NCBI RefSeq assembly: GCF_900199635.1
Contig: NZ_LT962687.1
Coordinates: 1,163,501 to 1,227,500, forward strand
Origin: Anaerotruncus massiliensis (ex Togo et al. 2026)
GTDB taxonomy: Bacteria; Bacillota; Clostridia; Oscillospirales; Ruminococcaceae
DNA: 64,000 nt
Direction: 5' to 3'
Shown piece by piece: positions 14,144-29,444 of this stretch (positions within the stretch are counted from its first letter, which is position 1; every line of letters begins with the position of its first letter). A program made the translations under genes and the position numbers. The notes under the pieces were generated by a model. It had not been told where the DNA came from and did no database searches. It saw only the letters and a program-made list of their open reading frames with translations.

Positions 14144-14713
14144 ATGGCAAAGAGGTCCAGGCAGCAGTTGGGGAACGTCCCCGTGACCATGATATGCGTG
14201 AATGCGGTGACGGAAACCACGATCAGCGGCTGTTTTGGAGAGGGGGCCCTGGCGGACAGCGTGCCCCTGCGGACGGCGAGCGGGGAATTTTATAACGGCG
14301 GCTTTGCGGAGAAGCTGCCTTTCACCGGATTTTACGACCTGGTCATGAAGCTGGACGCCGTCTTCGACTATTTCTCCTTCCCCCAGCGGGGCACTCAGCT
14401 GCGCACGGCCGGGAAACCGGGCCCGGCGGCGCGGTTCGTGCAAATGAAGGAGGACGTCCTGCCCCGGCTGACGCAGCAGTGGAACGAACGGGTGATGCAG
14501 AATGGCTGGGGGAGGTGCGCAACCTTCTCGGTGCATGTGTACGCACGGCAGAACAGCAGCTGGCAGGGGCGCGTGAGGTGGCTGGAAGGGAAGCGGGAGG
14601 AGAACTTTCGGAGCGTGCTGGAACTCATGTGTTTTCTGGAGAGCGTATTGGATATTGAGGAGCGATCCTTGCGGATAGAAGAGACAGGAAGACATGGAGG
14701 GACGAAAGAATGA
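14144..14713 (+). CDS. Conserved uncharacterised protein coupled to the giant surface protein
   Basis: 189 residues; I do not recognise a named domain. There is no signal peptide or membrane segment, so it should be cytoplasmic. The C-terminal half (about 120-170) reads WGRCATFSVHVYARQNSSWQ followed by GRVRWLEGKREENFRSVLEL. I recall similar RQN-WQG-V-W-EGK-E-NFRS-LEL patterns in other uncharacterised clostridial proteins (from memory, not searched). Its stop overlaps the start of the 3,679-aa protein (ATGA), so the two are translationally coupled. Possible roles are a regulator or assembly factor for the surface locus; both are guesses from position. Confidence 0.6.
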   Translation: MAKRSRQQLGNVPVTMICVNAVTETTISGCFGEGALADSVPLRTASGEFYNGGFAEKLPFTGFYDLVMKLDAVFDYFSFPQRGTQLRTAGKPGPAARFVQMKEDVLPRLTQQWNERVMQNGWGRCATFSVHVYARQNSSWQGRVRWLEGKREENFRSVLELMCFLESVLDIEERSLRIEETGRHGGTKE

Positions 14714-17700
14714 AAACGTTGTGGAGGAATAAAGAACACAGCGGGAAGCGGTATACGGCGCTGCTTTTGGCGGTGCTGATGCTGATGAGTACGATCCCGG
14801 TCTTTACATACGCGGAGGATATCGTCGGGGGAGCTTCCGGAGAGGGGAGCGCGCCGGCGAGCGAAGCCGCGCCCGCGGAGGAGAGCAAACCGGATGGGGA
14901 GCAGCCTCCCGAGAGCGGGACCGCAAGCGGCGAAAGCCCGTCCGAGGAGCGCCGCCACAACGAGGACGACAAGGGGAGCACGGACGAATACAGCCTGACG
15001 GCGACGCAGGAGGAGGTCTTCACGGAGGACGGCCTCGCGGTGGAGATCACGGCGGTGTCGACCTTCCCCTTCACGCGGAACTTACATATCGAGGCGAAGG
15101 ACGGCGGAAAGGCCGAGGGCGCCACGGAGGGCGCGGAGAAGGTCACGGGGGACCCGGAGGCGGTTTCGTCCGAGGCGTCCGGCCCGGAGGAGAACGGTTC
15201 GGAAGCTTCGGGCGTCCCGGAGGAATCCACAAGCTCGGAAGCGGCAAGCTCGGAAGCGAGCAGCGTTCCGGAAGTGAGCAGCGCTCCGGAAGAGAGTGCA
15301 TCGAGCGAAGAGAGCAAACCGGAGGAGACGCCGGAGAGCGGAAAACCGGAGGAGAACGGCAAACCCGGCGGGGCGGAGGACTCGTCGAATCCCATCAGTG
15401 AACTTGCAGAGGCTGCGGCAAGCGCGCGGATCAATCTGGTGCGGGTGCTGTCGGCGGAGATCACGGCGGAGGAGATCGTGCCGTTGCCGGAGAGCGGCGT
15501 GTCGGAGCCGAAACCGGAGAGCAGCACAGCGGAGTCAAAACAGGAGAGCAAGCCGGAGGACCCGACGGCGGATACGAGCACCGGGGAGGAGAAGGCCCCG
15601 GCCCCGGATGGGAGCAGTTCGGAGAATCCCGCGCCGGGCGGGGAGAGCGAGGCCGCGTCCTCTTCCGGGACGGGCCCGGAGGATACCGGTTCTGAAAATG
15701 CGGGTTCCGAGGTGAGCTCAGATGCTTCCGGTTCGGAGGCCGCGAGCTCTAATTCGTCGGGCACGGACGAGACGATGAGCGAGGGCAGGGTGACGGTGAA
15801 CGGGGAAGGGGAGCCGTTCCGGTTCCAGCGGAAGTTCACGGTGACGAAGAACGGGACGTATGTTATCCGGATCTATGACGGCGAGGGGCCGCTGGAGGAG
15901 CGCTCCTTCTACACGGAAGTGGAAGTGACCTCGCTGGGAGAGCTGACGGCGGAGATCGCGCCGGGAAGCAATGGACAGTACGAGGTGGCGATGGCGTCGA
16001 CCTATCCGGGGACGGAGCGGTTCACGGTGGAGTTCGTGCCGGCGGTGCGGGCAATGGCCCGGTCGCGGAGCGCGGAGCCCGCGGAGGGGGAAGCGGTGGA
16101 GCTGCCCGTGGAGGATGTGACGGTCAAGAGCGGCGAAGAAAACGGCCACGAAGAAAACGCCCCGTCGGAGGTGACGGAGGCGAGCACCGCCGTGCCCGCG
16201 AGCGCGGACGGGGTGTACACCGTCAAGGCGTTCCGCGGCGAAAACCTGCTGACCACGATGTCCCTGGACGCGCCTGAAATCGAGCTGCACAGCCGGGACG
16301 TCGTCTATTGGAACCCCGACCCCGAAACGAAGAGCAACGCGGACGGCACGGCGACGATCTGGGGCGGAAGCGACGACAACCGGGGTGATGAGAACGCGCC
16401 GGTGCGTTCCTTCGAGCAGGCGCTGGAACTGGCCGCTCCGGGCGGCACGATCTACTGCATGAATCCCGCGGCGGAGAGCGCGGATTATCTGAAACGCAAT
16501 TCCCAGATGTCGCCGGGAGACCTTGCTTTCAGCGGCGTCTTTGCGGGCCTCGCGCAAACGCCCGTGCGGGTGGCGCGTCATGAAAACCACCCTTCCGGGG
16601 CGATCTTTACCCTTGGAGAGGGCGTTGCGATGACCCTGTCGGAGATCGAGATTTCCGGGGCGGACGTCCAGACGGACGAGCTAATCCGTCTCGCGGGCGG
16701 CATTTTGAAGATCGGGACCGGGCTGCGCCTCTCCGGCGGACAGATTCTCTTCGAGCACCCGGATACGGCGCAGGCGGTCGAACTGCTCGCGCTGCCGGAG
16801 GACACGCTGGTGCTCTCCTTCGCGGCGGGCGAAAACGGCTTTAAAGCGTCGTTTGACGCGGCGCGCGCCGCCGAGGGGGTCTCCATGCGGGACGCGCTGG
16901 CAAAGCTTGCCCTGACCCAATCGTTACAGGCTGCGACTCCCGCCTGGAGCCTGACGGTCCGCGCGGACGACGCGAGCGTCGTCCAGGCGCGCCCGGCGGT
17001 GGTCTACAACGGAGCGGTCTATCTCTCGGGCGCGGGGGACGACGTGAATACCGGCGCCGCGGAGAACGACCCGGTGCGCACCTTCGCGCGCGCAAAGGAA
17101 CTTCTGCTCAACGAGCTGTCCGGACAGGGGGAGATCCGCATCTGCGGGACCGTCCCGGTGGAAGGGGACGAAACCTGGTCCGGAGCGACCGTTTCCCGCA
17201 GCGGAAGCGGTAATAACGAGTTGATCAATGTGACCGGCAGCCTCACGCTGGATGGGATCATCCTGCATGGCGGCAGGCCGGGCGACAGCGGAAATATTTC
17301 CGTTTCCGGAGGAACGCTGACCGTCACCGGGGGAAGCTCGCTTTCTGGCGGCAAGGGCGGCAGTTCCGGTTCCGCCTTTGAGGTGCCGATGATCCGCGTC
17401 TCCGCGGGCAGTATGGTTCTGCGGGATGGAACCGTCAGCGGGACGGATGTCGGCGTGGAGATTGTCCGCAACGGCAGGTTTACAATGGAGAACGGAACCG
17501 TTTCGAACGTCCTGCGGGGGGTGGAAGTCGGCGAGGACAGCGCCTTCCGGATGGACGGCGGCTCGATCTCTGCGACGCAGACGGGCGTTGTCACGAAAGG
17601 GGAGTTCGTCCTGTCGGCGGGGTCTGTGGCCGCGCCGGACGGCGGCTTCGCCGTTTCGGTCGACCGTTCGACTTCCGCAACAAAGGCGGCCTTTTTGCTG

Positions 17701-20700
17701 AACGGCCCGGCCGCCGCACTCACGGGAAAAATCCGGCTCGAAAGCCCGGAGGAAACGATCACCCTGACCGGCGCGCCCGGGGCGGGGAAGGTCTTTGCGG
17801 TCGAACTGAGCGGCAGCCACCGCCCGGGCAACGTCATCGTACAGCCCGGCGGGACGCTGGCGTCGGCGGCGGATTACGCAGACGCGTTCACGCTGAGCGG
17901 GACGGCGTATCCGCTGGCGGGCTATCAAAACAATCTGGTGCTGATGGGCGGCGTCTATCTGGACGGCGCCGCCGCCGCGGACGGCAGCGGCGCTTCGCCC
18001 GATTCGCCGGTCCGTACGTTTGAAAAAGCGATGGCAATCCTCTCGAAGAGCGGCGGCGCAATCCCGGCGAAGGTCATCCTCTGCGGCCCCGTGACCGTGA
18101 GCGGTACCGAGACCTGGTCCTCCCCGCTTGATGAGACGGTCGAAGTGACCCGCTGGGATGATTCCGCCCTTACGCTCAATCAGTTTGTCACCGTTGCGGA
18201 CGGCGGCAGCCTGACGCTGGAAAACGTCGCTCTGGACGGCCTCTACGGCGAGGCCGAAACATCTGTCAATACGATCGTGTCGGTCGCGGCGGGCGGCAGC
18301 CTGACGCTGGCGGACGGGGCGGCCGTCCGCGGCAGCGCGGGCAGCGGCGTCAGCGTCGCCGGCGGTTCGGTGACGCTGGCGGGCGGCGAAATTTCCGGCA
18401 ACAAGGGCCGGGGCATCAACGCCACGGGCGCATCCACTGTCAAAGTCGTCTCCGGAAGAATCACCGGGAACGGTAGAAACGGCGTGTACCTCGATGGGGG
18501 CAGCATGACCATGTCCGGCGGCGAAATCTCCGGAAACTACGCCGTTGTGGAAGGGACGGAAAGATACGCGGTGCACCGCGGCGGCGGCGTCTGGATCGCC
18601 GGCGGCGGCTTTACGATGAGCGGCGGTAAAATCTCCGGGAACCTCTGCGACGACATCCTTGACCGCGGCGGCGAAGCGCTCGGCGGCGGGGTCTATTTTG
18701 CCGGCGATAGGATGTTCATGAACGGAAGCGCGGAAATCAGCGGCAATACGGCCACCAAGGGCGGCGGCGTCTATCTCGCCGGCACCAGCAGCATGGAGAT
18801 GGGCGGGAACGCGTCGATCAGCGGGAACCATGTGCACGAGGCATACCCGGAGGAGGAGAGCCGCCATGAGGACGGCTCGCTCGGCGGCGGCGTCTATGTG
18901 GCGGGCGGCGATTTCGTCATGAGTGACTCCGCCTCGATCACGAATAACGAAGCGAAATCCGTGAGGGGCAGGCGGACCTCGACGGGCGGCGGCGTCTACA
19001 TCGCGCCGGGGCTCGCGATGCTCCAGATCGAGGAAAGCGTGACGGTCAGCGGGAACACCGCGCAGCGCGGGGCGGGCGTGGCCCATGAGGGCGCGTACTT
19101 CAACCTGGGCGGGACCGGCGTAACGATCCCTGACGAAATCTTCATCGACATGGAGCAGAATTCCGAGGTGAAGAAATCACCGATCAGCCTGTTGGCTCCG
19201 TTGGATACCAGTAAAAAATTCCAGCTCCGTGTCCCGGATACCTATATTGGAAAAACGGTGGTCGCTGGAGCGGCCGGGTATAACGCCGCGTCCTATCTGG
19301 AACAGGGCGTGTTTACCCTGGTTGATATGGGCGGCGGCCTGACGCTGGCCGGCGAAGGCAATAACATCGTCGGCCGGGGCGGTCTCTACGTCTACCTCAG
19401 CGGGTCTGGCAACGACGTTAACAACGGTACCAGCCCGGACGACGCGGTTCGTACCTTTGCGCGCGCGAAGGAGCTGCTGAAATCCCGCTCCGCGGGAACC
19501 AACATCCTCATCAGCGCCACCGTGGTGGTTCGGGAAGACGAGACCTGGTCCCTCCCGGAGATGACGGACAACGCGGGGGAGACCTGGCGGCCGGAGATCC
19601 GCACAATGGCGGACGGGTCTTATACCTTCGCGCCGATTTTCATCTCCCGTGAGGGCGCCGGCAGCGTGGTGGAGTATCCCAACGCGAAGCTGACGCTGAA
19701 GGACGTCGTCGTCAACGGAAATGGAACCCCCATCGTGTCGGGCACCACCCAGAGCCGCTACGGAACGGGCCTGATCCAGGTCAGCGGCGGCGCGGCGCTG
19801 GTGCTGGGCGAGGGAACGGTCATCGAAAACGGCACGGGCCCCGGCGTTGTGCCCACGCGCGGTACCTGCACGATTGACGGCGCGATCATCCGCAACAACG
19901 CGGGCCCCGGCCTGCACACCCCCTCCGACCACATGACGATTACGATGAACAGCGGCTCTGTGACGGGCAACCAGATGGGCGGCGTCATCATTGAGGGGAA
20001 TACCCACAAGTTCATCCTGAACGGCGGAACCATTTCGGACAACACGCACGGGGAAAGCGGGCTTACGGGCGATTCGGTCAGCGGGCTCGGCGGCGGCGTC
20101 TGCATCCGGGCGACCGGCTCCTCCTTCGAGATGAGCGGCGGCACAATCAGCGGCAACACGGCCTCCGGCAGCGGCGGCGGCGTTTACCTCAGCGCAACAT
20201 CTGGAAGCATTCCCTCTTGTGTCATCACCGGGGGTAAAATTACCGGGAACCAGGCGGGTGCGGATGGCGGCGGCGTCTACAGTGGTACCAACAGCAGCCG
20301 AAGCACCGTCGTGGTGAGCGGGGACACGGAAATCTCCGGCAACACGGCCGGGCGATACGGCGGCGGCGTTTACGGCGAACTGACGCTGGAGAGTGGCGCG
20401 ATCAATAGCAATGCCGCAAAAACCGGCGGTGGCGGTGTGGATGGCAACGTGACCATGCGGAACGGATCCATCTCAGACAATACGGCGGAGGCTGGCGGCG
20501 GAATTAACGCTTTTGGAAATATAACTGCACTCTACGGCGGCGAGATCAGCGGAAACACCGCTCTCTTTGGCGGCGGCATCCTTGTGAGAGGCGGGACTGT
20601 CCTTGTGGACGGCGGGTCGATCACGGGCAACCACGCGACCGGAACGGACTACGTGGTAAAGACGGGCGGCGGCGCCATCGGGACTGGGATGACCAGTTCT

Positions 20701-23700
20701 ATTACCATCCGCAGCGGAACCATCTCGGGCAACACGTCGGCAACAAACGGCGGCGCCATCATGATGGGGATGGTGGGCAGGTCTTTCACAGTTGAGGGCG
20801 GCGTAATCAGCGGCAACGAGGCGGCTTGGGACGGCGGCGGAATCTACCTGTTTTCGTGCACGAATTTTACCATGTCGGGCGGCAGCGTCTCCGGCAACCG
20901 CGCGGGAGGCAGCGGCGGCGGCATTGGGATCAGCGATAGTACGACCAAGCAGGTCTACAGCGGCGGCAGCATTACGGGAAATACGGCGGCGGCGAACGGC
21001 GGCGGCATCGATCTGGTGGGCAACGCCACGTTCAACGGCGTCACCGTCTCGGACAATACCGCCCTGGCGGGCGGCGGCGTCCGGGTCTCAGGCGAAAAGA
21101 GCACCCTCACGATCAACGCGGGCGGCGTCACCGGAAACAGGACGACGGCGGCCGGTGTGACCGGCGGTGCGGGCGTCTACGTCGACGGCGGCACGGTCAC
21201 GGCGGCGGGCGGACAGATCTCCGGCAACGCCCTCGGAAACAGCACGCAGCATGGCGGGAGCGTCTATGTCGCGGACGGCAGCTTTGTCCTGAACGGCGGG
21301 CGGACCGCGATCGACGGGACCATCCATCTGAATACCACCGCGTCTCCCGTCCGGGTTTCGGCGGCGATCACCCAGAACCGAAAGTACCGCCTGACCATGA
21401 ACATGGGCGGCGGCGACACGCAGTATCAATCCGGAAGCGCGGTGGTCAGCCCGTTAAGCGGCAGCGCCGTATCGGACGCGTCCGCCTACCTGCGGTATTT
21501 CCAGGCGGACACGGAGGCCCTGCTGCTCGATAAGGCGTCCCCCAACATCGTGCTGCGCAAGATCGTCTTCCTGGACGGTGAAAACGGCGGCACGAGCGAG
21601 TGGTACGACGGCTCGACCCCGGCGCGCGCCTTCAAGACCTTTGAATCGGCAAAGGCCGCCCTGGCCGGGGAACCGGGCGCGATCTACGTGACCGGAACCG
21701 TGACGGTGACCGAACCGGGGACGGGCTGGACCCTTGCGGACGGCCAGTACCTGCGCCGGTATAGCGGCTTTGAAGTCTCGGGGCAGAAGACCTACGACGC
21801 CTTCGCGGGCGACCTTGTCCGCGTGGCGGACGGCGGAACGCTCACGCTCGGCGGCATTTCGATCGAGGGCAGGCGCAGCGCGGAGGACAGCTATACCGCC
21901 GCGGGCACGCTGGTGCGCGTCGCGCGCGGCGGCAGCCTGACGATGGGCGAGAACACGGTGCTTTGCAACAACAAGACCTCCGGCGACGGCGGGGCCGTCG
22001 TTGTGGAACCGGACGGCATCTTCGCGTTCAACGGCGGCGCGATCTCCAACACGCAGGCGGCGCGCGGGGACGCGGTCCACCAGAACGGCACGATGAGCGT
22101 CAACGGGAACCCCACGGCCGAGGGATCCGTATACCTCGCGGCCGGAAGGACGGTCGATGCCGTAACGGGATTTGCCGGGACGCTGACGGTGGACGTGGCG
22201 GATCCCTACGCGGGCCGTGAAGTGGTCGCCTATCAGGGCGTGCTGGTTTCTCCCGCTCCCGAGCTTGCCAAATTCACGCTCGCGGAGGCGGTCGCGGCCC
22301 AGTACCGGCTGGTGCACGGCACGGTCGGAAGCGGGCCCGACGGCGGGCACAGCGTGCTCAAGCTGGGCGAAAAGGGCTTCGTCTATGTGGACGGCTCCCT
22401 GTCGGCGGATGCGGGCGACGGCGCGACCCCGGACGGGGCCTTCGCGACGCTGAATAAGGCGTATAGCAGCCTGAAGGCGGACGGCGGCGGCACGATCTAT
22501 ATCGTCAACCCGGTGAAGATTACCGGCTCGGTCAAGATCAATTCCGACAGCTACATCTTCAACGTCACCGGTGCGGGCGCAGTCACGATCAAAGGCGGCC
22601 CGGTCGCCATCAAGCGCTACTCCAAGCCGGTTTCGCCGCTGCCCGGGTACGGCAAGGCGTCCAACACGGCGGAGCTTTTCATTGTTGAAAACGGCGGCAC
22701 CCTCCAGGTCGCGGGCACGACGCTTGACGGCCACAGCGAGGCGGTGACGCAGGGCGCGGAGGCGCTGGCCGCGCCCGCGGTCGAGGCGCAGGCGCCGCTC
22801 GTGACGGTGCGGTCCGGCGGAAGCTTCCATACCGACGACGGCGCGGTCCTGCGCAACAACCGGAATGCTTCGGCAGACGGACAGGGCGGCGCGGTGTATA
22901 TCGCGGAGGGCGGAACATACAAGCTCTACGGCGGTTCCACGATTGCAAACACCCACGCGGAGGAGGGTTCGGCGGTCTACCAGGCCGGCCAGCTGATGAT
23001 CTCCTCGGCGGCGGGCACGGATGAGGATCTGTCGGTCGAGGGAGAGGTCTTCCTCGGGACGGAAAAATATATCGAAACCTTCAACGCCTTTGCACCGAGG
23101 GGGGCCCTGAAGATCGACCTGGCAGACGCCTACAAAGGCAGGACGATCATCACCTATGACGCGCAGAATCCGGATACGATCGTTGTCGACCCGTCGAAGG
23201 CCGCGCTGTCCGGCCGGGTATCGGCGGGCTTCACCGCCGGAAAGCGGGAGGGCGGGAACGTCCTCGAGCTGCAGGCGAAGGGCGCGGTCTATATCGACGG
23301 CATAAACGGCAGCGACGATAGGGACGGCGGATCGCCCGCCCAGGCGGTCAAGACCCTCGCGAAGGCGTATGAAAAGCTCGCCGCGCAAAAGGGCGGCACC
23401 CTCTACGTGGTGGGAGAAGTTGCGATCCCGGAGGGCCAGAACATCACGCTGAGCGGACAGGAGCTCTATGGAATGGGCTATGTGGACGCGGGCGGTCCGG
23501 TGACGATCATGCGCTATTCCCAGCCGGAGGCGCACGAAAGCCTCGGAGATAACTACGCGGTAGCAAGCAACAGCGGTTCCATCTTTACAGTTGACGGCGG
23601 CAGCCTGACGCTGGAGGAGATCACCGTCGACGGGCACCGCCACGGTGTGACCGGAGCCGCGGAGATCGCCTCGCCGGGCATCGGCGGCGAAGCCGCCATC

Positions 23701-25749
23701 ACCGTGAACAAAGGAAGCCTGATCCTGAACGAGGGGGCGGTCTTGCAAAACAACGCCTCGAAGCTACCCGGCGGGGCAATCGCCACACCTCTGTCGGCCA
23801 TGGACAAGTCGATCGAGATCGAAATCAACGGCGGCAAGATTACCGGAAACCTTGGTATGAGCGGAACTGATACTAATAGCGTCGGCGCAATCTTCGTAGG
23901 CCAGGGAGCTTCCCTGAAAATGACGGACGGGGAGATCTCCGATAACGAGGGAGGCGAGGCGCAGTACATGATCGGCGGCATCGCGACGTTTGGCGGGCAG
24001 GTTGAAATTACCGGCGGAAGCATCCGGGAGAACCGAGGCATGGGCCTCTGGCTCAGGCTGGGGAACGCCTCGCTGAAAAACTGCTTGATCGCGGACAACA
24101 CGGGCGCCCAGTACGCGGGCGGTGTCGGAATCGCCGGAAGTACGGTGGTGGCGGAAAATCTGACGCTTTCGGGCAACACGGTCACCGGCGGCAGCGGCGG
24201 CAACGGAATCTACCAGAACGGCACGCTGCGCCTGCGCGGCAGGGCGACCTCCTTCGGCGCAGACCAGTACGTCTACCTGCCGAAGGGAAAAGTCATCAAC
24301 GTGGACGGGGCGCTTCCGGATTCCGCGGCGATCCCGGTGGACATGGACCGCGCGGACGTTGACACGGACTACGGCCCCGGCCGTAACGTCGCCGTCTATT
24401 TAAACGGCGTCGTGGAGGACGTCGCGGACGAAACCGCGAAGTTCCTGCTCGCGGAGAGCATCGATTACACGCTGGCGAAATCCACCACGGAAGCAAATAC
24501 CCTGGAGCTGGGCGAGCCCTTCCACTTCATGGACCTGGAGCGGGACTTCCTGAAACAGGCGGGCGTCCCGGCGACGATCATGGCGGAGGTGTCCTCCGAC
24601 GACGTGGTCAGCTGCGAACTCTATCGTGGAACAAATAAGATCGACACGTCGTTTGGCGGCGTGGTCAATTCGGGCAACGGGGGCAAAGCATCGGTTTCGG
24701 TCACCTTTACGCCGAACTGGGGCGATGACGGAGTTTACCACCTGGAAGCCACGGACGCCAACGGGACTGTCGCGAAAAGCGGTTCGTTCAGCCTTTCACT
24801 TTGGAAGGTACAGTACAGTACGGGCGACCGCACTGCGGTGCAGACCTCGACGCTCGGCGCGGATGATTCCGGCCCCAACGACACGGCGTCGATCGTCATA
24901 GCCATCCAGCAGCCGTTGGCCGGCGGCACTTCGACATCGCTTTCCGTGGGCATTGGAAGCTATACGATGGAGAGCGCCGACGCGGATTACGCCCCGCAGC
25001 TTGTCAGCAAGGAGGCCGTCACGGCCGGACGCACGGAGTGGGGCCGCAATGACGCCATGAATAAGTTTGCATGGACGAGGCCCTACGAGGGTACGGAATA
25101 TCCGGTCAGCCAGACACGCGGGTGGAACCAGACGGTTACTCTCCCATTCAATTTTTACAATGCGAATGCCATCAGCGAATCCCGGGACGGCTGGCTGTCG
25201 ATGAAGATATCCCTGCTTGAGCGTGGCGCGGCAAACGCCTACGCGGACGACATGGCGCGGATTCCGTTCCATACGAACCCGGTCTCGATCGACGCGACGG
25301 TGCCCCTGTGGGTGTGCATGTACGGCTACGGCGGGGACGGCAAGGTCGTCACGCCGGAGGAGGGGAGCTACGTCATCAAGAACAACTCCCTCTTCCCGGT
25401 GCAGGTCACCGGAATGTCGGTGAGACCGATGGGAAACTGGTCGTTCGTACAGCCCCCGGCAGGCGGGTTCCTCACGAACGGGAGCTACGACGTCTCCAGG
25501 AACAACCTCTCCGCCGGTCAGGCGGCGCTCCGGCTGGATACCCAGTGGGTTTCGGCGGACGCGGGCGCGGACTGGACGGCGGCGGATAAAACCGGCCCGC
25601 TCTTCAAGCCCATCGGGGCGGCGGCGGAACGCGCGGTGCCCGTCGAATGTTACATCCCCGAGGGGGGCGTGACGGCGGACGGGGAGACCCAGATCGCCGC
25701 CGTGACCTATACGGTGGGCATCAGCGGCGCGGCCGGTGACGGGGGGTGA
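14710..25749 (+). CDS. Giant secreted right-handed beta-helix surface protein
   Basis: 3,679 residues. The signal peptide (1-35) ends at VFTYA. Two Ser/Glu/Pro-rich low-complexity stretches (about 37-95 and 125-355) may form an extended stalk. Seven modules follow, each opening with a variant of VYLSGSGNDVNNGTSPDDAV and then RTFARAKELL, at about residues 527, 770, 1081, 1560, 2285, 2557 and 2859. They contain runs of beta-helix coils of the type GGxISGNTAxxGGGVY, most regular in module 4. A beta-sandwich-like region (about 3270-3525) leads to a C-terminal domain from I3527 (VPLWVCMYGYGGDG) shared with the protein at 26384. There is no LPXTG motif, C-terminal membrane helix or cell-wall repeat, so attachment probably depends on partners. 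Probable adhesin or polysaccharide-binding filament; ligand unknown. Confidence 0.85.
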   Translation: MKTLWRNKEHSGKRYTALLLAVLMLMSTIPVFTYAEDIVGGASGEGSAPASEAAPAEESKPDGEQPPESGTASGESPSEERRHNEDDKGSTDEYSLTATQEEVFTEDGLAVEITAVSTFPFTRNLHIEAKDGGKAEGATEGAEKVTGDPEAVSSEASGPEENGSEASGVPEESTSSEAASSEASSVPEVSSAPEESASSEESKPEETPESGKPEENGKPGGAEDSSNPISELAEAAASARINLVRVLSAEITAEEIVPLPESGVSEPKPESSTAESKQESKPEDPTADTSTGEEKAPAPDGSSSENPAPGGESEAASSSGTGPEDTGSENAGSEVSSDASGSEAASSNSSGTDETMSEGRVTVNGEGEPFRFQRKFTVTKNGTYVIRIYDGEGPLEERSFYTEVEVTSLGELTAEIAPGSNGQYEVAMASTYPGTERFTVEFVPAVRAMARSRSAEPAEGEAVELPVEDVTVKSGEENGHEENAPSEVTEASTAVPASADGVYTVKAFRGENLLTTMSLDAPEIELHSRDVVYWNPDPETKSNADGTATIWGGSDDNRGDENAPVRSFEQALELAAPGGTIYCMNPAAESADYLKRNSQMSPGDLAFSGVFAGLAQTPVRVARHENHPSGAIFTLGEGVAMTLSEIEISGADVQTDELIRLAGGILKIGTGLRLSGGQILFEHPDTAQAVELLALPEDTLVLSFAAGENGFKASFDAARAAEGVSMRDALAKLALTQSLQAATPAWSLTVRADDASVVQARPAVVYNGAVYLSGAGDDVNTGAAENDPVRTFARAKELLLNELSGQGEIRICGTVPVEGDETWSGATVSRSGSGNNELINVTGSLTLDGIILHGGRPGDSGNISVSGGTLTVTGGSSLSGGKGGSSGSAFEVPMIRVSAGSMVLRDGTVSGTDVGVEIVRNGRFTMENGTVSNVLRGVEVGEDSAFRMDGGSISATQTGVVTKGEFVLSAGSVAAPDGGFAVSVDRSTSATKAAFLLNGPAAALTGKIRLESPEETITLTGAPGAGKVFAVELSGSHRPGNVIVQPGGTLASAADYADAFTLSGTAYPLAGYQNNLVLMGGVYLDGAAAADGSGASPDSPVRTFEKAMAILSKSGGAIPAKVILCGPVTVSGTETWSSPLDETVEVTRWDDSALTLNQFVTVADGGSLTLENVALDGLYGEAETSVNTIVSVAAGGSLTLADGAAVRGSAGSGVSVAGGSVTLAGGEISGNKGRGINATGASTVKVVSGRITGNGRNGVYLDGGSMTMSGGEISGNYAVVEGTERYAVHRGGGVWIAGGGFTMSGGKISGNLCDDILDRGGEALGGGVYFAGDRMFMNGSAEISGNTATKGGGVYLAGTSSMEMGGNASISGNHVHEAYPEEESRHEDGSLGGGVYVAGGDFVMSDSASITNNEAKSVRGRRTSTGGGVYIAPGLAMLQIEESVTVSGNTAQRGAGVAHEGAYFNLGGTGVTIPDEIFIDMEQNSEVKKSPISLLAPLDTSKKFQLRVPDTYIGKTVVAGAAGYNAASYLEQGVFTLVDMGGGLTLAGEGNNIVGRGGLYVYLSGSGNDVNNGTSPDDAVRTFARAKELLKSRSAGTNILISATVVVREDETWSLPEMTDNAGETWRPEIRTMADGSYTFAPIFISREGAGSVVEYPNAKLTLKDVVVNGNGTPIVSGTTQSRYGTGLIQVSGGAALVLGEGTVIENGTGPGVVPTRGTCTIDGAIIRNNAGPGLHTPSDHMTITMNSGSVTGNQMGGVIIEGNTHKFILNGGTISDNTHGESGLTGDSVSGLGGGVCIRATGSSFEMSGGTISGNTASGSGGGVYLSATSGSIPSCVITGGKITGNQAGADGGGVYSGTNSSRSTVVVSGDTEISGNTAGRYGGGVYGELTLESGAINSNAAKTGGGGVDGNVTMRNGSISDNTAEAGGGINAFGNITALYGGEISGNTALFGGGILVRGGTVLVDGGSITGNHATGTDYVVKTGGGAIGTGMTSSITIRSGTISGNTSATNGGAIMMGMVGRSFTVEGGVISGNEAAWDGGGIYLFSCTNFTMSGGSVSGNRAGGSGGGIGISDSTTKQVYSGGSITGNTAAANGGGIDLVGNATFNGVTVSDNTALAGGGVRVSGEKSTLTINAGGVTGNRTTAAGVTGGAGVYVDGGTVTAAGGQISGNALGNSTQHGGSVYVADGSFVLNGGRTAIDGTIHLNTTASPVRVSAAITQNRKYRLTMNMGGGDTQYQSGSAVVSPLSGSAVSDASAYLRYFQADTEALLLDKASPNIVLRKIVFLDGENGGTSEWYDGSTPARAFKTFESAKAALAGEPGAIYVTGTVTVTEPGTGWTLADGQYLRRYSGFEVSGQKTYDAFAGDLVRVADGGTLTLGGISIEGRRSAEDSYTAAGTLVRVARGGSLTMGENTVLCNNKTSGDGGAVVVEPDGIFAFNGGAISNTQAARGDAVHQNGTMSVNGNPTAEGSVYLAAGRTVDAVTGFAGTLTVDVADPYAGREVVAYQGVLVSPAPELAKFTLAEAVAAQYRLVHGTVGSGPDGGHSVLKLGEKGFVYVDGSLSADAGDGATPDGAFATLNKAYSSLKADGGGTIYIVNPVKITGSVKINSDSYIFNVTGAGAVTIKGGPVAIKRYSKPVSPLPGYGKASNTAELFIVENGGTLQVAGTTLDGHSEAVTQGAEALAAPAVEAQAPLVTVRSGGSFHTDDGAVLRNNRNASADGQGGAVYIAEGGTYKLYGGSTIANTHAEEGSAVYQAGQLMISSAAGTDEDLSVEGEVFLGTEKYIETFNAFAPRGALKIDLADAYKGRTIITYDAQNPDTIVVDPSKAALSGRVSAGFTAGKREGGNVLELQAKGAVYIDGINGSDDRDGGSPAQAVKTLAKAYEKLAAQKGGTLYVVGEVAIPEGQNITLSGQELYGMGYVDAGGPVTIMRYSQPEAHESLGDNYAVASNSGSIFTVDGGSLTLEEITVDGHRHGVTGAAEIASPGIGGEAAITVNKGSLILNEGAVLQNNASKLPGGAIATPLSAMDKSIEIEINGGKITGNLGMSGTDTNSVGAIFVGQGASLKMTDGEISDNEGGEAQYMIGGIATFGGQVEITGGSIRENRGMGLWLRLGNASLKNCLIADNTGAQYAGGVGIAGSTVVAENLTLSGNTVTGGSGGNGIYQNGTLRLRGRATSFGADQYVYLPKGKVINVDGALPDSAAIPVDMDRADVDTDYGPGRNVAVYLNGVVEDVADETAKFLLAESIDYTLAKSTTEANTLELGEPFHFMDLERDFLKQAGVPATIMAEVSSDDVVSCELYRGTNKIDTSFGGVVNSGNGGKASVSVTFTPNWGDDGVYHLEATDANGTVAKSGSFSLSLWKVQYSTGDRTAVQTSTLGADDSGPNDTASIVIAIQQPLAGGTSTSLSVGIGSYTMESADADYAPQLVSKEAVTAGRTEWGRNDAMNKFAWTRPYEGTEYPVSQTRGWNQTVTLPFNFYNANAISESRDGWLSMKISLLERGAANAYADDMARIPFHTNPVSIDATVPLWVCMYGYGGDGKVVTPEEGSYVIKNNSLFPVQVTGMSVRPMGNWSFVQPPAGGFLTNGSYDVSRNNLSAGQAALRLDTQWVSADAGADWTAADKTGPLFKPIGAAAERAVPVECYIPEGGVTADGETQIAAVTYTVGISGAAGDGG
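20040..21280 (+). repeat. Tandem beta-helix coil repeats inside the giant gene
   Basis: Imperfect repeats of roughly 60-75 bases encode coils of the form GG-x-I-SGN-x-A...GGG(V/I). The unit recurs with variation in module 3 (18380-19080) and most densely here in module 4. The GGCGGCGGC-type glycine codons make this stretch prone to recombination and to assembly collapse, so copy number may differ between strains (inference). Confidence 0.75.
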
Positions 25750-25755
25750 TAAGCG

Positions 25756-26286
25756 ATGAATGAAACGGAAAGCGCGGCCCCGAAAAAGGGCCGCGGGAAA
25801 CTGCTCTTGCTTCTGCTGCTCCTGATCCTGCTGATCGCGGCGGGCGTGGGAGGCTGGTACTGGTGGCAGAGCCAGCAGGACACCTTCTTCGACGTGGCGG
25901 CCATGACCGGCCACCTCCCGGGCAAAACGGAGGAGGAGATCCAGGCGGAGCTCAACCGCGTGGTGGAAGAGGGCATGTTCAACATTGCGATTAACACCTA
26001 TCTCATTTTCCCGGACGGGAACGGCGAAGGGCTCGCGAACATCGAGAACATCGCCGCCAACCGCTACAACATGACGGTCCAGATCACGCTCGACAGCACG
26101 GGCGAAACGGTCTACCAATCCAAAGGTATCAGGCCCGGACAGTACATCCAGTATATCAGGCTGTCCGAGGACCTGCCGGCGGGTGTCTATAACGCGACCG
26201 CGGTCTTCACCGCGCACATGCCGGACGACGAACATTCGATCGCCGGGCAGGCGGGCGCGAAGCTGGTCCTCGAGGTAGAAAACTGA
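25756..26286 (+). CDS. Membrane-anchored partner protein 1 of the surface locus
   Basis: 176 residues. A basic N terminus, one transmembrane helix (about 19-38, ending GGWYWW) and an extracellular domain of about 130 residues. The domain begins with a charged helix, GKTEEEIQAELNRVVEEGMF, followed by a beta-rich sandwich ending AGAKLVLEVEN. It lies six bases after the giant gene. It is a clear paralogue of the protein at 27195, sharing the helix and the strands NIAINT, IENIAANRY, ITLDSTGETVYQS and ATAVFTAH. In the WxL surface system a membrane-anchored Ig-like protein (DUF916 type) holds the secreted partner; an equivalent role here is inference. Confidence 0.7.
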   Translation: MNETESAAPKKGRGKLLLLLLLLILLIAAGVGGWYWWQSQQDTFFDVAAMTGHLPGKTEEEIQAELNRVVEEGMFNIAINTYLIFPDGNGEGLANIENIAANRYNMTVQITLDSTGETVYQSKGIRPGQYIQYIRLSEDLPAGVYNATAVFTAHMPDDEHSIAGQAGAKLVLEVEN

Positions 26287-26383
26287 ATGCGGCCGCAGAA
26301 CTGAGGAGGGGGTATGTGAGCGAATCACTTTTTATAAGGTTTCAAAACAATCCCAATACAAAACATCTTAGGAGGTCAAAACA

Positions 26384-27040
26384 ATGAAAAAACTGTTAGC
26401 GGTTCTCTTGGCAATCACGATCGTCATGTCCATGGGCGTTGTCGCGTTCGCGGCGCACGATGGCGGTACACACGGCATTGACTCCGAAGCTGCGGTCGGC
26501 GAGCAGAAGGAATTGGCCACCAGCGGCGGAAGCCAGTTCGGCAAGACGGATTTCTACCTGAACATCGATAAAAACGCCGTGTCCGGGGATACCCAGATCA
26601 GCGCGACGATCCCGCTGTGGGTCTGCATGTACGCCTACGGCGGCGACGGCATGGTTGTTACGCCGGCCGACGCGTACAAAATCCTCAACACCGGAACGGA
26701 TACGGACATCAAGGTCTATGCCATGCGGGCGCTGCCGCAGGAGGGCTGGACGTTCAACACCTTCGATAGCAGCGTTTACAGCGGCGGCGGCTATGTCCGT
26801 GCGAACAACACGCTGACCGCGGCAAAGACGATGGCGATGACGGTCAACGGCGTGGACCTTTCCACGATTTCCGACAGTGAAAACACGGATTTGGCCGCCC
26901 CCTGGAAGGTCGTTAAAAATAACGGTACCACCGACGGCGAGCTGAAACTCCCCCTGCAGGCGTATATTGCCCCCGGCGGCGTGAACGAAGGCGACGACAC
27001 CAACGTTGTGAACGTGATGTATTTTGTCACGGCGGCTTAA
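26384..27040 (+). CDS. Small secreted protein sharing the giant protein's C-terminal domain
   Basis: 218 residues. Signal peptide 1-23/24 (GVVAFA-AH). From residue 72 it matches the giant protein's end: ISATIPLWVCMYAYGGDG here against IDATVPLWVCMYGYGGDG there, then VVTP, a glycine-tryptophan strand (GWTF/NWSF), and a closing YIAPGGV / YIPEGGV before an aliphatic strand. W79 and C81 align with W3534 and C3536. Residues 28-62 also resemble the small sortase-substrate protein at 27761. It has no anchor. It may compete with or cap the giant protein on the shared membrane partner type (inference). A strong SD (TTAGGAGGTC) and a 97-base gap suggest its own promoter and high expression. Confidence 0.7.
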   Translation: MKKLLAVLLAITIVMSMGVVAFAAHDGGTHGIDSEAAVGEQKELATSGGSQFGKTDFYLNIDKNAVSGDTQISATIPLWVCMYAYGGDGMVVTPADAYKILNTGTDTDIKVYAMRALPQEGWTFNTFDSSVYSGGGYVRANNTLTAAKTMAMTVNGVDLSTISDSENTDLAAPWKVVKNNGTTDGELKLPLQAYIAPGGVNEGDDTNVVNVMYFVTAA

Positions 27041-27055
27041 TTTCTTCCTTAACAT

Positions 27056-27082
27056 CCCGCGCGGGGAACTCCCCCGCGCGGG
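27056..27082 (+). other. Hairpin without T-run between paired modules
   Basis: CCCGCGCGGGG pairs perfectly with CCCCGCGCGGG (11 bp, loop AACTC) just after the secreted-protein gene. Without a following T tract it is more likely an mRNA 3'-end stabiliser or partial attenuator, making the upstream protein more abundant than its membrane partner. Confidence 0.55.
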
Positions 27083-27194
27083 GGCCTTCGGGCCCTGCAG
27101 GACATCCACCCGAGCCCGCGGAGCGATCCGCGCCCCAACAAGGAAACAAACGGCGCAAGCCTTGAAATAGAAACAAAATAAGGCGGGATGGACG

Positions 27195-27743
27195 ATGAAC
27201 GGAGAAAAGACGGAGGAGCGGGCGAACGCAACCCGGGACGGCGGCAAAAAGCTGCTCGCCGCGGCGTGCGTCCTGCTGCTGCTCGTGCTGGGAATCCTGG
27301 CGTTTCTGCTGCTGCGCGCGCCCAAGGCGGGGCCGTCCGGCCTCGCGCGGGAAGCGGCGGCGCTCGCCGGGCAGCTCGAGGGCAAGACGGAGGAGGAAAT
27401 CCAGGCTGAGCTCAACCGGATCGTGGAAGAGGGCATGTTCAATATCTCGATCAACACGGCGCCCACCTTTGAAAACGGAAAGGCCGAGGGCCCGCTCCAG
27501 ATCGAAAACGTGCCGGGCAACCGGTATCTCATGCAGGTGCTGATCACGCTGGACGACACGGGCGAGCTGATCTACGAAACGGGGCTCATCGAGCCCAACC
27601 ACCACATCCAGTCGGCGAAGCTGGATGTGGAGCTGGAAAAGGGCGAATACCTCGCGACGGCGGTCTTTAACGCATACGACCCCGAGACGGAAGAATATAT
27701 CGGGTCGGCTGGCGCGAAATTGACGATCACCGTCTTAAGCTGA
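27195..27743 (+). CDS. Membrane-anchored partner protein 2 of the surface locus
   Basis: 182 residues. Short cytoplasmic N terminus, one transmembrane helix (about 19-42), then an extracellular domain paralogous to the protein at 25756: the helix GKTEEEIQAELNRIVEEGMF is almost identical, followed by NISINT, IENVPGNRYLMQV, ITLDDTGELIYETG and YLATAVFNAYDPET, ending GSAGAKLTITVLS. It follows the small secreted protein just as its paralogue follows the giant one. That suggests two cognate secreted/membrane pairs created by duplication (inference). The SD is weak (AAGGCGGG). Confidence 0.7.
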   Translation: MNGEKTEERANATRDGGKKLLAAACVLLLLVLGILAFLLLRAPKAGPSGLAREAAALAGQLEGKTEEEIQAELNRIVEEGMFNISINTAPTFENGKAEGPLQIENVPGNRYLMQVLITLDDTGELIYETGLIEPNHHIQSAKLDVELEKGEYLATAVFNAYDPETEEYIGSAGAKLTITVLS

Positions 27744-27760
27744 TCACGGGAGGGACAAGG

Positions 27761-28258
27761 ATGAAACGGATGAACAGGGTTCTGGCGGCGCTTCTGGGGT
27801 GCGTGCTGGCGCTGTGCATGGGAATCACGGCGCTGGCGGCGGAAACGGACACCGGGGAGCCGATGGGCGCGCCCTCCCACGCGGAAAGCGGCGGGCACGG
27901 GACGAAGGAGGCGGCGGCGGTCGGCGGCCTCGCGGACTTCGAAAGGAATCCCGGGAACAGCTTCAGCGCGTCGACGCGGTTTTACCTGCGGATCGAAAAC
28001 TCCCCCTACATCGGCCCGTCGGGCGGCGGTGGGGGCGGCGATTCGGTGCGGGTGCTCGTGCCGCTCGACCTTCCGGACGACCTCAAGCTCATCGATGACC
28101 TGCCCATCCCGCTGTCGATCCCGAACACGGGCGACGGCCCGCTGCCCACTGCGGCGTTTGCGCTGCTGGCGGTTTCCGCCGCCCTGATCGCGGCCGCCGG
28201 GTATCAGAGCGGCGGAAAATCCCACCGCGGACGGGAGGACCGGACGCCACCCAAGTGA
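27761..28258 (+). CDS. Small sortase-substrate surface protein
   Basis: 165 residues. Signal peptide 1-26 (GITALAA). A middle segment (GHGTKEAAAVGGLADFE...STRFYLRIEN) resembles the start of the mature 26384 protein. A Gly-rich linker and a Pro/Leu/Asp-rich stretch follow. The C terminus is a classical cell-wall sorting signal: IPNTG at 120-124, a hydrophobic segment, and a basic tail (KSHRGRED). It is therefore probably linked to peptidoglycan by a sortase encoded elsewhere. Small LPXTG proteins of this kind are regular members of WxL/Csc clusters. It is the last gene of the surface locus, 83 bases before a terminator. Confidence 0.75.
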   Translation: MKRMNRVLAALLGCVLALCMGITALAAETDTGEPMGAPSHAESGGHGTKEAAAVGGLADFERNPGNSFSASTRFYLRIENSPYIGPSGGGGGGDSVRVLVPLDLPDDLKLIDDLPIPLSIPNTGDGPLPTAAFALLAVSAALIAAAGYQSGGKSHRGREDRTPPK

Positions 28259-28382: not shown

Positions 28383-28571
28383 GACCCTCCCGGAGGAAAG
28401 CGCGCGGCGATTTTCAAAACCTTCCCTGCAAGTATGGCGGCTGGCGGCGGTTCACGCATCCAAAAGCAAAGGGAACGGGGCGGCTTTTGAATGCGCACCA
28501 TAATTGCAGAATTACAGTTATTTCCATTCTTCGACAAAATCCCCTATACTTCGACATAGGGAGTGATGTCA

Positions 28572-28922
28572 ATGACGGTACAGGTTCTGGGACAGAAGAT
28601 CAGGTATCTCAGGCGGAGAGAGGGCCTTTCACAGGAGGAGTTTGCGGCCAGGGCGGGCGTCAGCCACCGGAAGCTCAGCGACATCGAGTGCGGAAACGGG
28701 AACCCCACCTTTGATACGATGGACTGCATCGCCGCGGCGTTCGGCCTCCAGATCGAGGAGCTGCTTCAGCCGGATATCGAGGTCGACCTGCTGCCCAGAA
28801 GAGAGCTTTCCCGCCTGCAGCCCATGGTCGACCGCCTTCCCGAGGCGTGGCAGGAGCTGTTTGTCCGGGGGGCGGAGGGCGCTCTGGCCATGTGGCTCGA
28901 GACCGTCCGCGGGCGGGAATAG
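28572..28922 (+). CDS. XRE-family transcriptional regulator A
   Basis: 116 residues from ATG 28572, chosen because GGGAG lies 8 bases upstream and the start then matches its neighbour at 29097 (MTVQVLGQKIRYLR / MTVANLGQIIKARR). A helix-turn-helix of the Cro/C1 type spans about 7-60 (LSQEEFAARAGVSHRKLSDIECGNGNPTFDT kept as a motif). The remaining 55 residues are helical and could dimerise or bind a ligand. It sits just after the surface locus. Together with its paralogue it may control that locus or the pair's own genes (inference). Confidence 0.85.
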   Translation: MTVQVLGQKIRYLRRREGLSQEEFAARAGVSHRKLSDIECGNGNPTFDTMDCIAAAFGLQIEELLQPDIEVDLLPRRELSRLQPMVDRLPEAWQELFVRGAEGALAMWLETVRGRE

Positions 28923-29043
28923 GAAAGCGCCGGTTTTTTGCTCGCGGGCCGGCGGCCGCGTGAGGCGCTGTCATGAAAATGAGAAAAAATGGGTATCAAC
29001 TGAAGTTATGTGACTGGTAAAATAGTACGCGTAACATGGTTTA

Positions 29044-29072
29044 TTCAGAAAATCTGCGATTTTACCTATAAT
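29044..29072 (+). promoter_or_regulatory. Promoter of XRE regulator B
   Basis: TTCAGA (29044-29049), a 17-bp spacer and a perfect TATAAT (29067-29072) lie 25 bases before the start codon, giving a very short leader. Confidence 0.6.
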
Positions 29073-29096
29073 TTTATAAAAAGGGGAGAATCGCCG

Positions 29097-29444
29097 ATGA
29101 CAGTCGCAAATCTGGGACAGATCATCAAGGCCCGCAGAGAGCGGATGAAGATCAATCAGGAAAACCTTGCGGCCTGCGCGGGAATCAGCACAAAGCTGCT
29201 CAGCGACATCGAATGCGGCAGAGCGAACCCGACCTTTGAAACGATGGACCTTGTGGCGGCCGCGCTGGGCGTGGAGCTGGAGGAGCTGCTCCAGCCCGAG
29301 CAGGTGATCGACCTGCTTCCCAAAAACGATCTCGCGCGGTACCAGCAGATGCTCGACCGCCTTCCTCCGTTCGCGCAGGAGATGGTCATCGCGGGACTTG
29401 AGGGCGCGATCTCCCAATGTCTTCAGGTCTCCAAGGAATGGTAA
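29097..29444 (+). CDS. XRE-family transcriptional regulator B
   Basis: 115 residues from ATG 29097, with AAAGGGGAG upstream. HTH domain at about 6-60 (INQENLAACAGISTKLLSDI, then ECGRANPTFETMDLVAAALG) and the same helical tail as regulator A (EELLQPEQVIDLLPKNDLARYQ). The two proteins are clear paralogues with separate promoters. The recognition-helix residues differ (SHRKLSDIE versus STKLLSDIE), so their operators may overlap or differ slightly. Its stop codon forms part of the following terminator stem. Confidence 0.85.
   Translation: MTVANLGQIIKARRERMKINQENLAACAGISTKLLSDIECGRANPTFETMDLVAAALGVELEELLQPEQVIDLLPKNDLARYQQMLDRLPPFAQEMVIAGLEGAISQCLQVSKEW

Follow-up and report, generated by a model that had tools for sequence, protein, structure and literature searches.

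The described systems closest to the one reported here are the Csc clusters, in which CscA is a WxLIP protein (DUF916-DUF3324), CscB a small WxL protein, CscC a large WxL protein and CscD a short LPXTG protein. In the view of PMC10599100, the WxL sandwich is probably completed by a strand of WxLIP. A passage of PMC1534035 proposes that the short LPXTG protein anchors the others via 'as yet unknown interactions', and the same paper found no csc genes in clostridia. The present work concerns a stretch of 64,000 nucleotides (nt) from Anaerotruncus massiliensis (contig NZ_LT962687.1, positions 1,163,501 to 1,227,500 of the forward strand; hereafter the window), in which six consecutive genes at 14144 to 28258 probably build a giant surface fibre and fix it to the cell with partners of no described family.

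An earlier note, made from the sequence alone, had read these genes as a surface-complex locus with the logic of a WxL cluster and unrelated sequences. All six open reading frames (ORFs) were found on the + strand at the positions that it gave. The gene set proved to be a recurrent locus type in which no homology to WxL proteins was detected, and we lean slightly towards the view that it encodes a noncovalent multi-protein surface complex with Csc/WxL-type logic built from different protein families. No description of such a cluster was found in searches of the open-licence PMC literature.

Gene content of the locus

The gaps between the six genes are, from 5' to 3', -4, 6, 97, 154 and 17 nt, and purine-rich stretches precede the start codons, so that the genes likely form one operon. 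The curated cut-off of Pfam or NCBIfam was reached by none of the five non-giant proteins. The first gene (14144..14713, +) encodes a cytoplasmic protein of 189 amino acids (aa) with no signal peptide and no Pfam/NCBIfam match. The second gene (14710..25749, +) encodes the giant secreted protein of 3,679 aa, comprising a signal peptide, a stalk rich in glutamate, serine and proline, a right-handed beta-helix region, a penultimate domain and a C-terminal domain (CTD). Its description as a secreted beta-helix protein without an anchor was borne out: Pfam Beta_helix matched it in 6 stretches (E 4.7e-18) and no anchor of its own was seen by sequence. A search of the beta helix for 5-strand cassettes found few starts, and the pattern was not used. 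The penultimate region (24850..25248, +; boundaries approximate) carries an N[AG]NA[IL] motif, FYNANAI in the window, which precedes the CTD in 7 of the 9 aligned giants; the giant of locus L018 has the variant ANTI and that of L019 has none. The CTD itself occupies 25249..25728 (+; profile E 1.2e-34).

The third gene (25756..26286, +) encodes TM1, a membrane protein of 176 aa with an N-terminal helix and an outer domain, modelled by AlphaFold2 as immunoglobulin (Ig)-like, that carries the motif LNRVVEEGMFNIAI. It is followed by the gene of a small secreted protein of 218 aa (26384..27040, +), composed of a signal peptide, a linker, a strand-like stretch and a second copy of the CTD. As had been claimed, this protein consists mostly of the domain that ends the giant (32% identity over 146 aa, E 7.2e-17). 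The stretch TDFYLNID directly before its CTD (26546..26569, +) resembles by eye STRFYLRIE of the last protein. The fifth gene (27195..27743, +) encodes TM2, of 182 aa, placed in the TM1 family by its sequence and by a tree. The last gene (27761..28258, +) encodes a protein of 165 aa with a signal peptide, a linker, a short strand-like stretch (STRFYLRIE, from residue 71; 27971..27997, +), a Gly-rich spacer and an IPNTG sorting signal (motif at 28118..28132, +).

Recurrence of the gene set

The genome holds three such clusters, the two others about 1 Mb from the window, whose giants are 3,540 aa and about 3,590 aa long (open frame). Each of these further clusters runs from a giant through a membrane protein, a small CTD protein and another membrane protein to a short protein bearing IPDTG or LPNTG, so that a short LPXTG-type protein ends all three own clusters (IPNTG, IPDTG and LPNTG). 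Seven membrane-family matches were obtained in the own genome at E <= 1e-3, two per cluster and one lone distant member. The latter (L012; G000:C7:1920887-1921378) has no membrane-near motif, described below, and no CTD neighbour.

A search with the membrane protein alone yielded 10 loci in named species of Oscillospiraceae, Eubacteriaceae, other Clostridia, Syntrophomonadaceae and, among Eggerthellaceae, Gordonibacter and Adlercreutzia. A CTD gene adjoins the membrane gene in 10/10 of them, the copy of L025 being cut by a contig end (E 6.9e-7). These ten and the three own clusters make up 13 core loci. The order giant, membrane protein, small protein, membrane protein is present in 9 of the 13; it is partial in L022, L023 and L025 (contig ends or an upstream ORF without a CTD match), and L026 has only the small protein and a membrane protein.

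The 297 genomes of the family were also scanned with profiles. A profile of the full-length small protein (A3) matched 77 of them, mostly via its signal-peptide part, and was replaced by a domain-only CTD profile (A5), which gave 17 matches in 6 genomes at E <= 0.001. Six of these matches come from the own genome and were used in building the profile, which leaves 11 in 5 other genomes. Every one of the 17 CTD matches has a membrane-family match no more than about 13 kb away. The two domains thus co-occur at 17 of 17 CTD matches, 11 of them in other genomes, whereas a failure to co-occur in other genomes had been set as the outcome that would speak against the proposal.

The C-terminal domain

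The motifs PLWVCMY and GYGGDG, offered earlier as the mark of the CTD, are local, and the third own copy reads VPMTVTF..AKDG instead. The CTDs group by lineage and not by their place in the cluster (giant or small protein). The AlphaFold2 model of the CTD had a mean predicted local distance difference test (pLDDT) value of 79.2 and a predicted TM-score (pTM) of 0.73. In the model of the window CTD the TDFYLNID region stayed below pLDDT 50; a strand in need of a partner would behave in this way, but a shallow alignment of 17 rows would also have this effect. A sequence search of the PDB gave no relative of the membrane domain or the CTD (best E 0.1 and 1.1), and the profile comparison of the CTD with the membrane domain gave nothing. 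For the CTD as for the outer domain of the membrane proteins, Pfam, NCBIfam, the PDB and the WxL profiles yielded no convincing match.

The membrane proteins TM1 and TM2

TM1 and TM2 are 46% identical, and each has by eye an N-terminal hydrophobic helix after a basic stretch, in agreement with the earlier note, which had called them two paralogous single-helix membrane proteins. They belong to the same family but are not redundant copies, as members fall on separate branches by position across phyla. For the tree, 28 proteins were labelled by place only, TM1 being the protein behind the giant and TM2 that behind the small CTD protein; the third membrane protein present in L021, L024 and L027 was not included. 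The two labels were parted by a single branch, which had 94/98 support and recurred in 94% of 200 bootstrap trees; 0 of 500 shuffles of the labels scored as low. After addition of three Enterococcaceae rows and one other, TM2 was still one group (85/98) and TM1 needed two changes, as if TM2 had arisen from TM1. The tree points to an old, position-fixed duplication.

A membrane-near motif L[NDS]xx..EGM (of the type LNRVVEEGMFNIS) was present in 24 of 66 membrane proteins, nine duplicate loci having been dropped, and 24 of these 24 stand at CTD loci; only seven of the carriers are unbiased, because the other 17 came from a scan using the motif. The row-by-row scan of the membrane proteins against Pfam and NCBIfam gave scattered weak matches (down to 2e-6), which in the one row shown fall in the membrane helix.

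The outer part was modelled by AlphaFold2 as one domain with one helix and seven strands (mean pLDDT 86.7, pTM 0.77), suggesting an Ig-like sandwich. Foldseek against the PDB returned Ig-like domains, the best being CopC (E 1.0e-3), followed by a dextranase domain, Brr2, the fimbrial chaperones DraB, SafB and CsuC (E 3e-3 to 1e-2) and MSP. The presence of periplasmic fimbrial chaperones among the best fold matches bears on another role for TM1 and TM2, namely that they act as export or assembly chaperones for the CTDs and are absent from the final complex, the wall being bound by the last protein or by the CTD. Such a role would suit the N-terminal helix, which holds the domain near the membrane and far from the outer wall, and the two copies, each placed behind its client. 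We nevertheless regard it as rather unlikely, since Ig-like sandwiches match many unrelated proteins, with CopC and the dextranase domain ranking as high as the chaperones, and since the known Ig-like WxL partner is thought, in PMC10599100, to remain in the complex.

Comparison with WxL clusters and other known systems

Like WxL/Csc clusters, the locus encodes two secreted proteins, one large and one small, that have their C-terminal domain in common, together with a membrane protein whose outer part is Ig-like (modelled here) and a short sortase-anchored protein, and it is found in several copies per genome and in gut-type hosts. Unlike them, it has its membrane helix at the N-terminus, as had been read from the sequence and was seen again here, whereas that of WxLIP is C-terminal. 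There is one Ig-like domain instead of two, there are two membrane proteins per cluster, the giant reaches 3,500 aa in comparison to 500-1,000, and the system is present in Clostridia and Eggerthellaceae. Because the protein families differ, the locus resembles a Csc cluster in its logic but is not classed as a member of that group.

This conclusion has to be set against the possibility that the CTD is a highly diverged WxL domain, which would make the cluster a true, if divergent, Csc cluster. The gene logic is the same, each domain is preceded by an N-terminal strand and closes, by eye, with a strand bearing an aromatic residue (TITYTIG here, LVWTLSD in WxL), and in the row-by-row scan 1 of 21 CTD rows touched Pfam WxLIP_PGBD (E 0.028). 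The profile comparisons argue otherwise, and we hold this origin to be very unlikely. WxL homology of the CTD was rejected after hhalign against six WxL proteins (probability 0.2%, E 0.39), an alignment so small that a remote link could escape it, and the membrane domain against WxL gave nothing. PF13731 (two Trp-x-Leu motifs) and PF06030 had no match in the own genome at E <= 10; PF13731 exceeded its cut-off in 2 of 398 genomes of the phylum. Neither membrane protein had any Pfam match over a cut-off, PF11797 (DUF3324) not having been searched in the genome. Conversely, on two real WxL clusters the own membrane profile reached a best E of 1.9 and the CTD profile found nothing. The helix at the opposite end of the partner also speaks against a common origin.

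Chaperone-usher pili (FimC/DraB-like) have in common with the locus an Ig-like partner, in line with the fold matches to DraB, SafB and CsuC, and a short N-terminal strand, here possibly exchanged between subunits. They differ in that the present system belongs to a Gram-positive envelope and has a membrane-tethered partner; with TM-scores <0.5 the likeness is one of structural class only. No usher was found among the ORFs of the operon, and the outer part is one domain, not a two-domain chaperone. Sortase-anchored single-protein adhesins with beta-helix regions are likewise large, extended surface proteins, but here the giant has no anchor and the sorting motif sits on another protein.

The last protein and its likeness to the small protein

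The last protein had been described as a small IPNTG sortase substrate. In the window the IPNTG motif, the hydrophobic stretch and the basic tail are all present, and NCBIfam LPXTG_double matched the protein below its cut-off of 48 (E 9e-4, 19.2 bits); such an end is not visible in every locus, however. L018-L020 have a longer last protein with a C-terminal membrane helix in place of the LPXTG-type end. Three sortase matches were found in the own genome, all away from the cluster, and in the 2 loci tested (L102 and L103) a dedicated sortase gene directly follows the last gene.

The stretch near the mature N-terminus of the last protein resembles the stretch before the CTD of the small protein of the same locus, as in the pairs DTQFKVID/STQFKVMT (L011), DTNVDILV/STSVDILV (L020), TEIWLQVDAD/TEIYLLVDAD (L021) and TMSTDVLAYY/TMSTSVYAYY (L023). 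This was evaluated with the best ungapped 10-mer between the two proteins in 13 loci with both (L105 was excluded as a near copy; L022, L025, L026 and L101 are without a pair). In 11 of the 13 loci the score exceeded that of 193 or more of the 200 residue shuffles. Pairs from one locus scored higher than pairs with permuted partners (p 5e-5), also when the permutation was confined to four lineage groups (p 7.5e-4). The best 10-mer falls upstream of the strand, in the linker, in four cases (the window, L102, L103 and L104), where the strand matches by eye as well. For three Enterococcaceae pairs examined afterwards, 63, 36 and 22 of 1,000 shuffles were as high. In WxL clusters the same test on 4 pairs with 2 short LPXTG proteins gave 262, 978, 399 and 288 of 1,000, which is not above shuffles, and for this reason the strand idea was not extended to WxL.

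Several points count against taking these likenesses as a sign of strand exchange. L019 and L027 fail the test (68 and 34 shuffles as high), the best 10-mer of the window itself is linker and not strand, the test was devised after the pattern had been seen on loci that are not independent, and the alike stretches could stem from common descent. The common stretch might also be a secretion, sorting or processing signal recognised by one factor, which would fit its position near the mature N-terminus in both proteins and its covariation per locus. We consider a signal quite improbable, since hydrophobic and polar residues alternate in the stretch as they would in a beta strand, the CTD follows immediately, and no processing enzyme was found in the operon.

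Proposed assembly

In the noncovalent complex that we favour, the giant, having no anchor, would be held on the cell through binding of its CTD by the Ig-like domain of TM1, and the CTD of the small protein would be bound by TM2. The last protein, which is usually wall- or membrane-anchored, ends the operon and would fix the assembly to the wall. It would offer a short beta strand like that before the CTD of the small protein, in a donor-strand-like exchange, and the stalk and beta helix may reach outward as an adhesin or carbohydrate binder. A more specific and tentative form, which we think unlikely, is a donor-strand-type Gram-positive assembly: the wall-anchored and the small CTD proteins would offer interchangeable, locus-specific N-terminal strands to CTD/Ig-like partners and lock the 3,500-aa fibre noncovalently, with a strand code per cluster preventing mixing.

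Other results weigh against the complex. The Foldseek comparison of the CTD model with the PDB gave no significant match (best E 0.047), and the query-normalised TM-scores of the Ig-like matches were 0.29-0.49 among the 50 matches listed. A C-terminal anchor was not seen in the last protein of L021, L024 and L027. The pairings TM1-giant and TM2-small protein gain no support from the distance correlations among the four protein types, which were 0.71-0.78 for all six pairings (9 loci) and do not tell partners apart. The membrane profile matched 89 of the 297 genomes of the family, 83 of which were without a CTD match; the membrane family thus extends beyond the system and has other roles. Genome G212, for example, has strong membrane matches and no CTD match; most distant members are solitary, and several stand beside nicotinate-phosphoribosyltransferase-like genes (by eye, 1.5-kb flanks).

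Stalk-coding block common to the giants

A block coding for the stalk (14867..16248, +; nucleotide alignment and genome search) is about 99% identical in the three own giants. Over 1,382 nt the window copy and copy 3 are 98.8% identical in a nucleotide alignment; pairs including copy 3 show 98.8-99.3% identity across the block, and copies 1 and 2 show 95-100% per 100 columns. The edges are sharp, with flanks mostly <60% in aligned identity except on the 5' side of copies 1 and 2. The genome contains the block exactly 3 times (window, L099 and L100), the giants being separated by distances of up to about 1.1 Mb. None of 10 congeneric genomes has it, so that among 11 of the genus it is limited to this one. 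Differences at several sites show that the copies did not arise through duplication of one sequence in the assembly. The simplest reading of the sharp-edged block is recent gene conversion, which would keep the stalks alike while the beta helix and the CTD diverge.

Distribution on mobile elements

The earlier note had proposed to compare the neighbourhoods of the domains across Clostridia. The system is not confined to that group and occurs also in Eggerthellaceae and on plasmids of Enterococcaceae. A tblastn search of plasmids gave 6 records (2 Enterococcus, 4 Melissococcus), of which three were read: L112 (E. gilvus pCR1A), L113 (Melissococcus pMP1) and L115 (an E. raffinosus plasmid). Each set has the order large protein (about 760 aa), membrane protein, small protein and a protein of 80-90 aa with an anchor-like C-terminus and no visible signal peptide. 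The membrane proteins matched the membrane profile with E 1.2e-26 to 4.3e-32. The CTD profile found 2 of 3 large proteins (E 1.8e-7 and 1e-6), missing that of Melissococcus, and weakly all 3 small ones (1.7e-4 to 1.2e-3).

L114 (MT837548, from human faeces, filed as phage) is an unannotated 6.6-kb contig that carries the set (E 3e-34 and 3.6e-11); it is probably a plasmid or element and not a phage. It encodes a membrane protein and three CTD proteins (two small, one large), with replication-like genes alongside. A search of viral contigs gave no relative. Relaxase and MobC genes lie near the cluster of L103, and L104 has a weak TrbL match (24.6 bits, cut-off 25). The clusters flanked by mobile genes (L103, L104 and L105; genomes G137 and G025) are possibly conjugative elements with their own surface fibre.

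As some copies lie beside relaxase or mobilisation genes or on plasmids, the neighbouring surface genes might simply have been carried along jointly by mobile elements, their products forming no physical complex. The fixed order with position-specific paralogues across two phyla and the locus-specific matching between small and last proteins render this very unlikely.

The cytoplasmic gene and the surroundings of the operon

The coupled cytoplasmic protein of the earlier note is a real ORF with its 4-nt overlap with the giant gene, but its gene is accessory and not core to the system. It is whole in the window; a near-full-length relative with an internal stop precedes the second own giant, and none was found beside the third. 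Four more distant relatives are encoded elsewhere in the genome (L014, L015, L016 and L017). Towards the C-terminus the family members share a motif resembling FRQNATWQGxVxW...FRSxLEL. Secreted-protein genes adjoin two of the four distant relatives: L014 lies behind two such genes and L017 overlaps the start of one for an 836-aa protein.

Two helix-turn-helix regulators are encoded downstream of the operon (28563-28922 and 29010-29444). The sole Rfam match in the window was a uup RNA (RF03060; 33326-33373, -; 42.6 bits), and no Rfam element lies inside the six-gene locus.

Significance

The TM1/TM2 duplication, the Ig-like model, the locus-matched N-termini and the block with a gene-conversion signature in the giants are new here. 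The likeness between the last and the small protein of each locus makes the open role of the short LPXTG protein directly testable by binding. If the proposed complex is real, two domains without a Pfam/NCBIfam entry would acquire a function and the retention of unanchored giants on the cell would be explained. The locus would then represent a second, Csc-like system unrelated in sequence, and this mode of fixing proteins to the wall would have arisen or diversified more than once.

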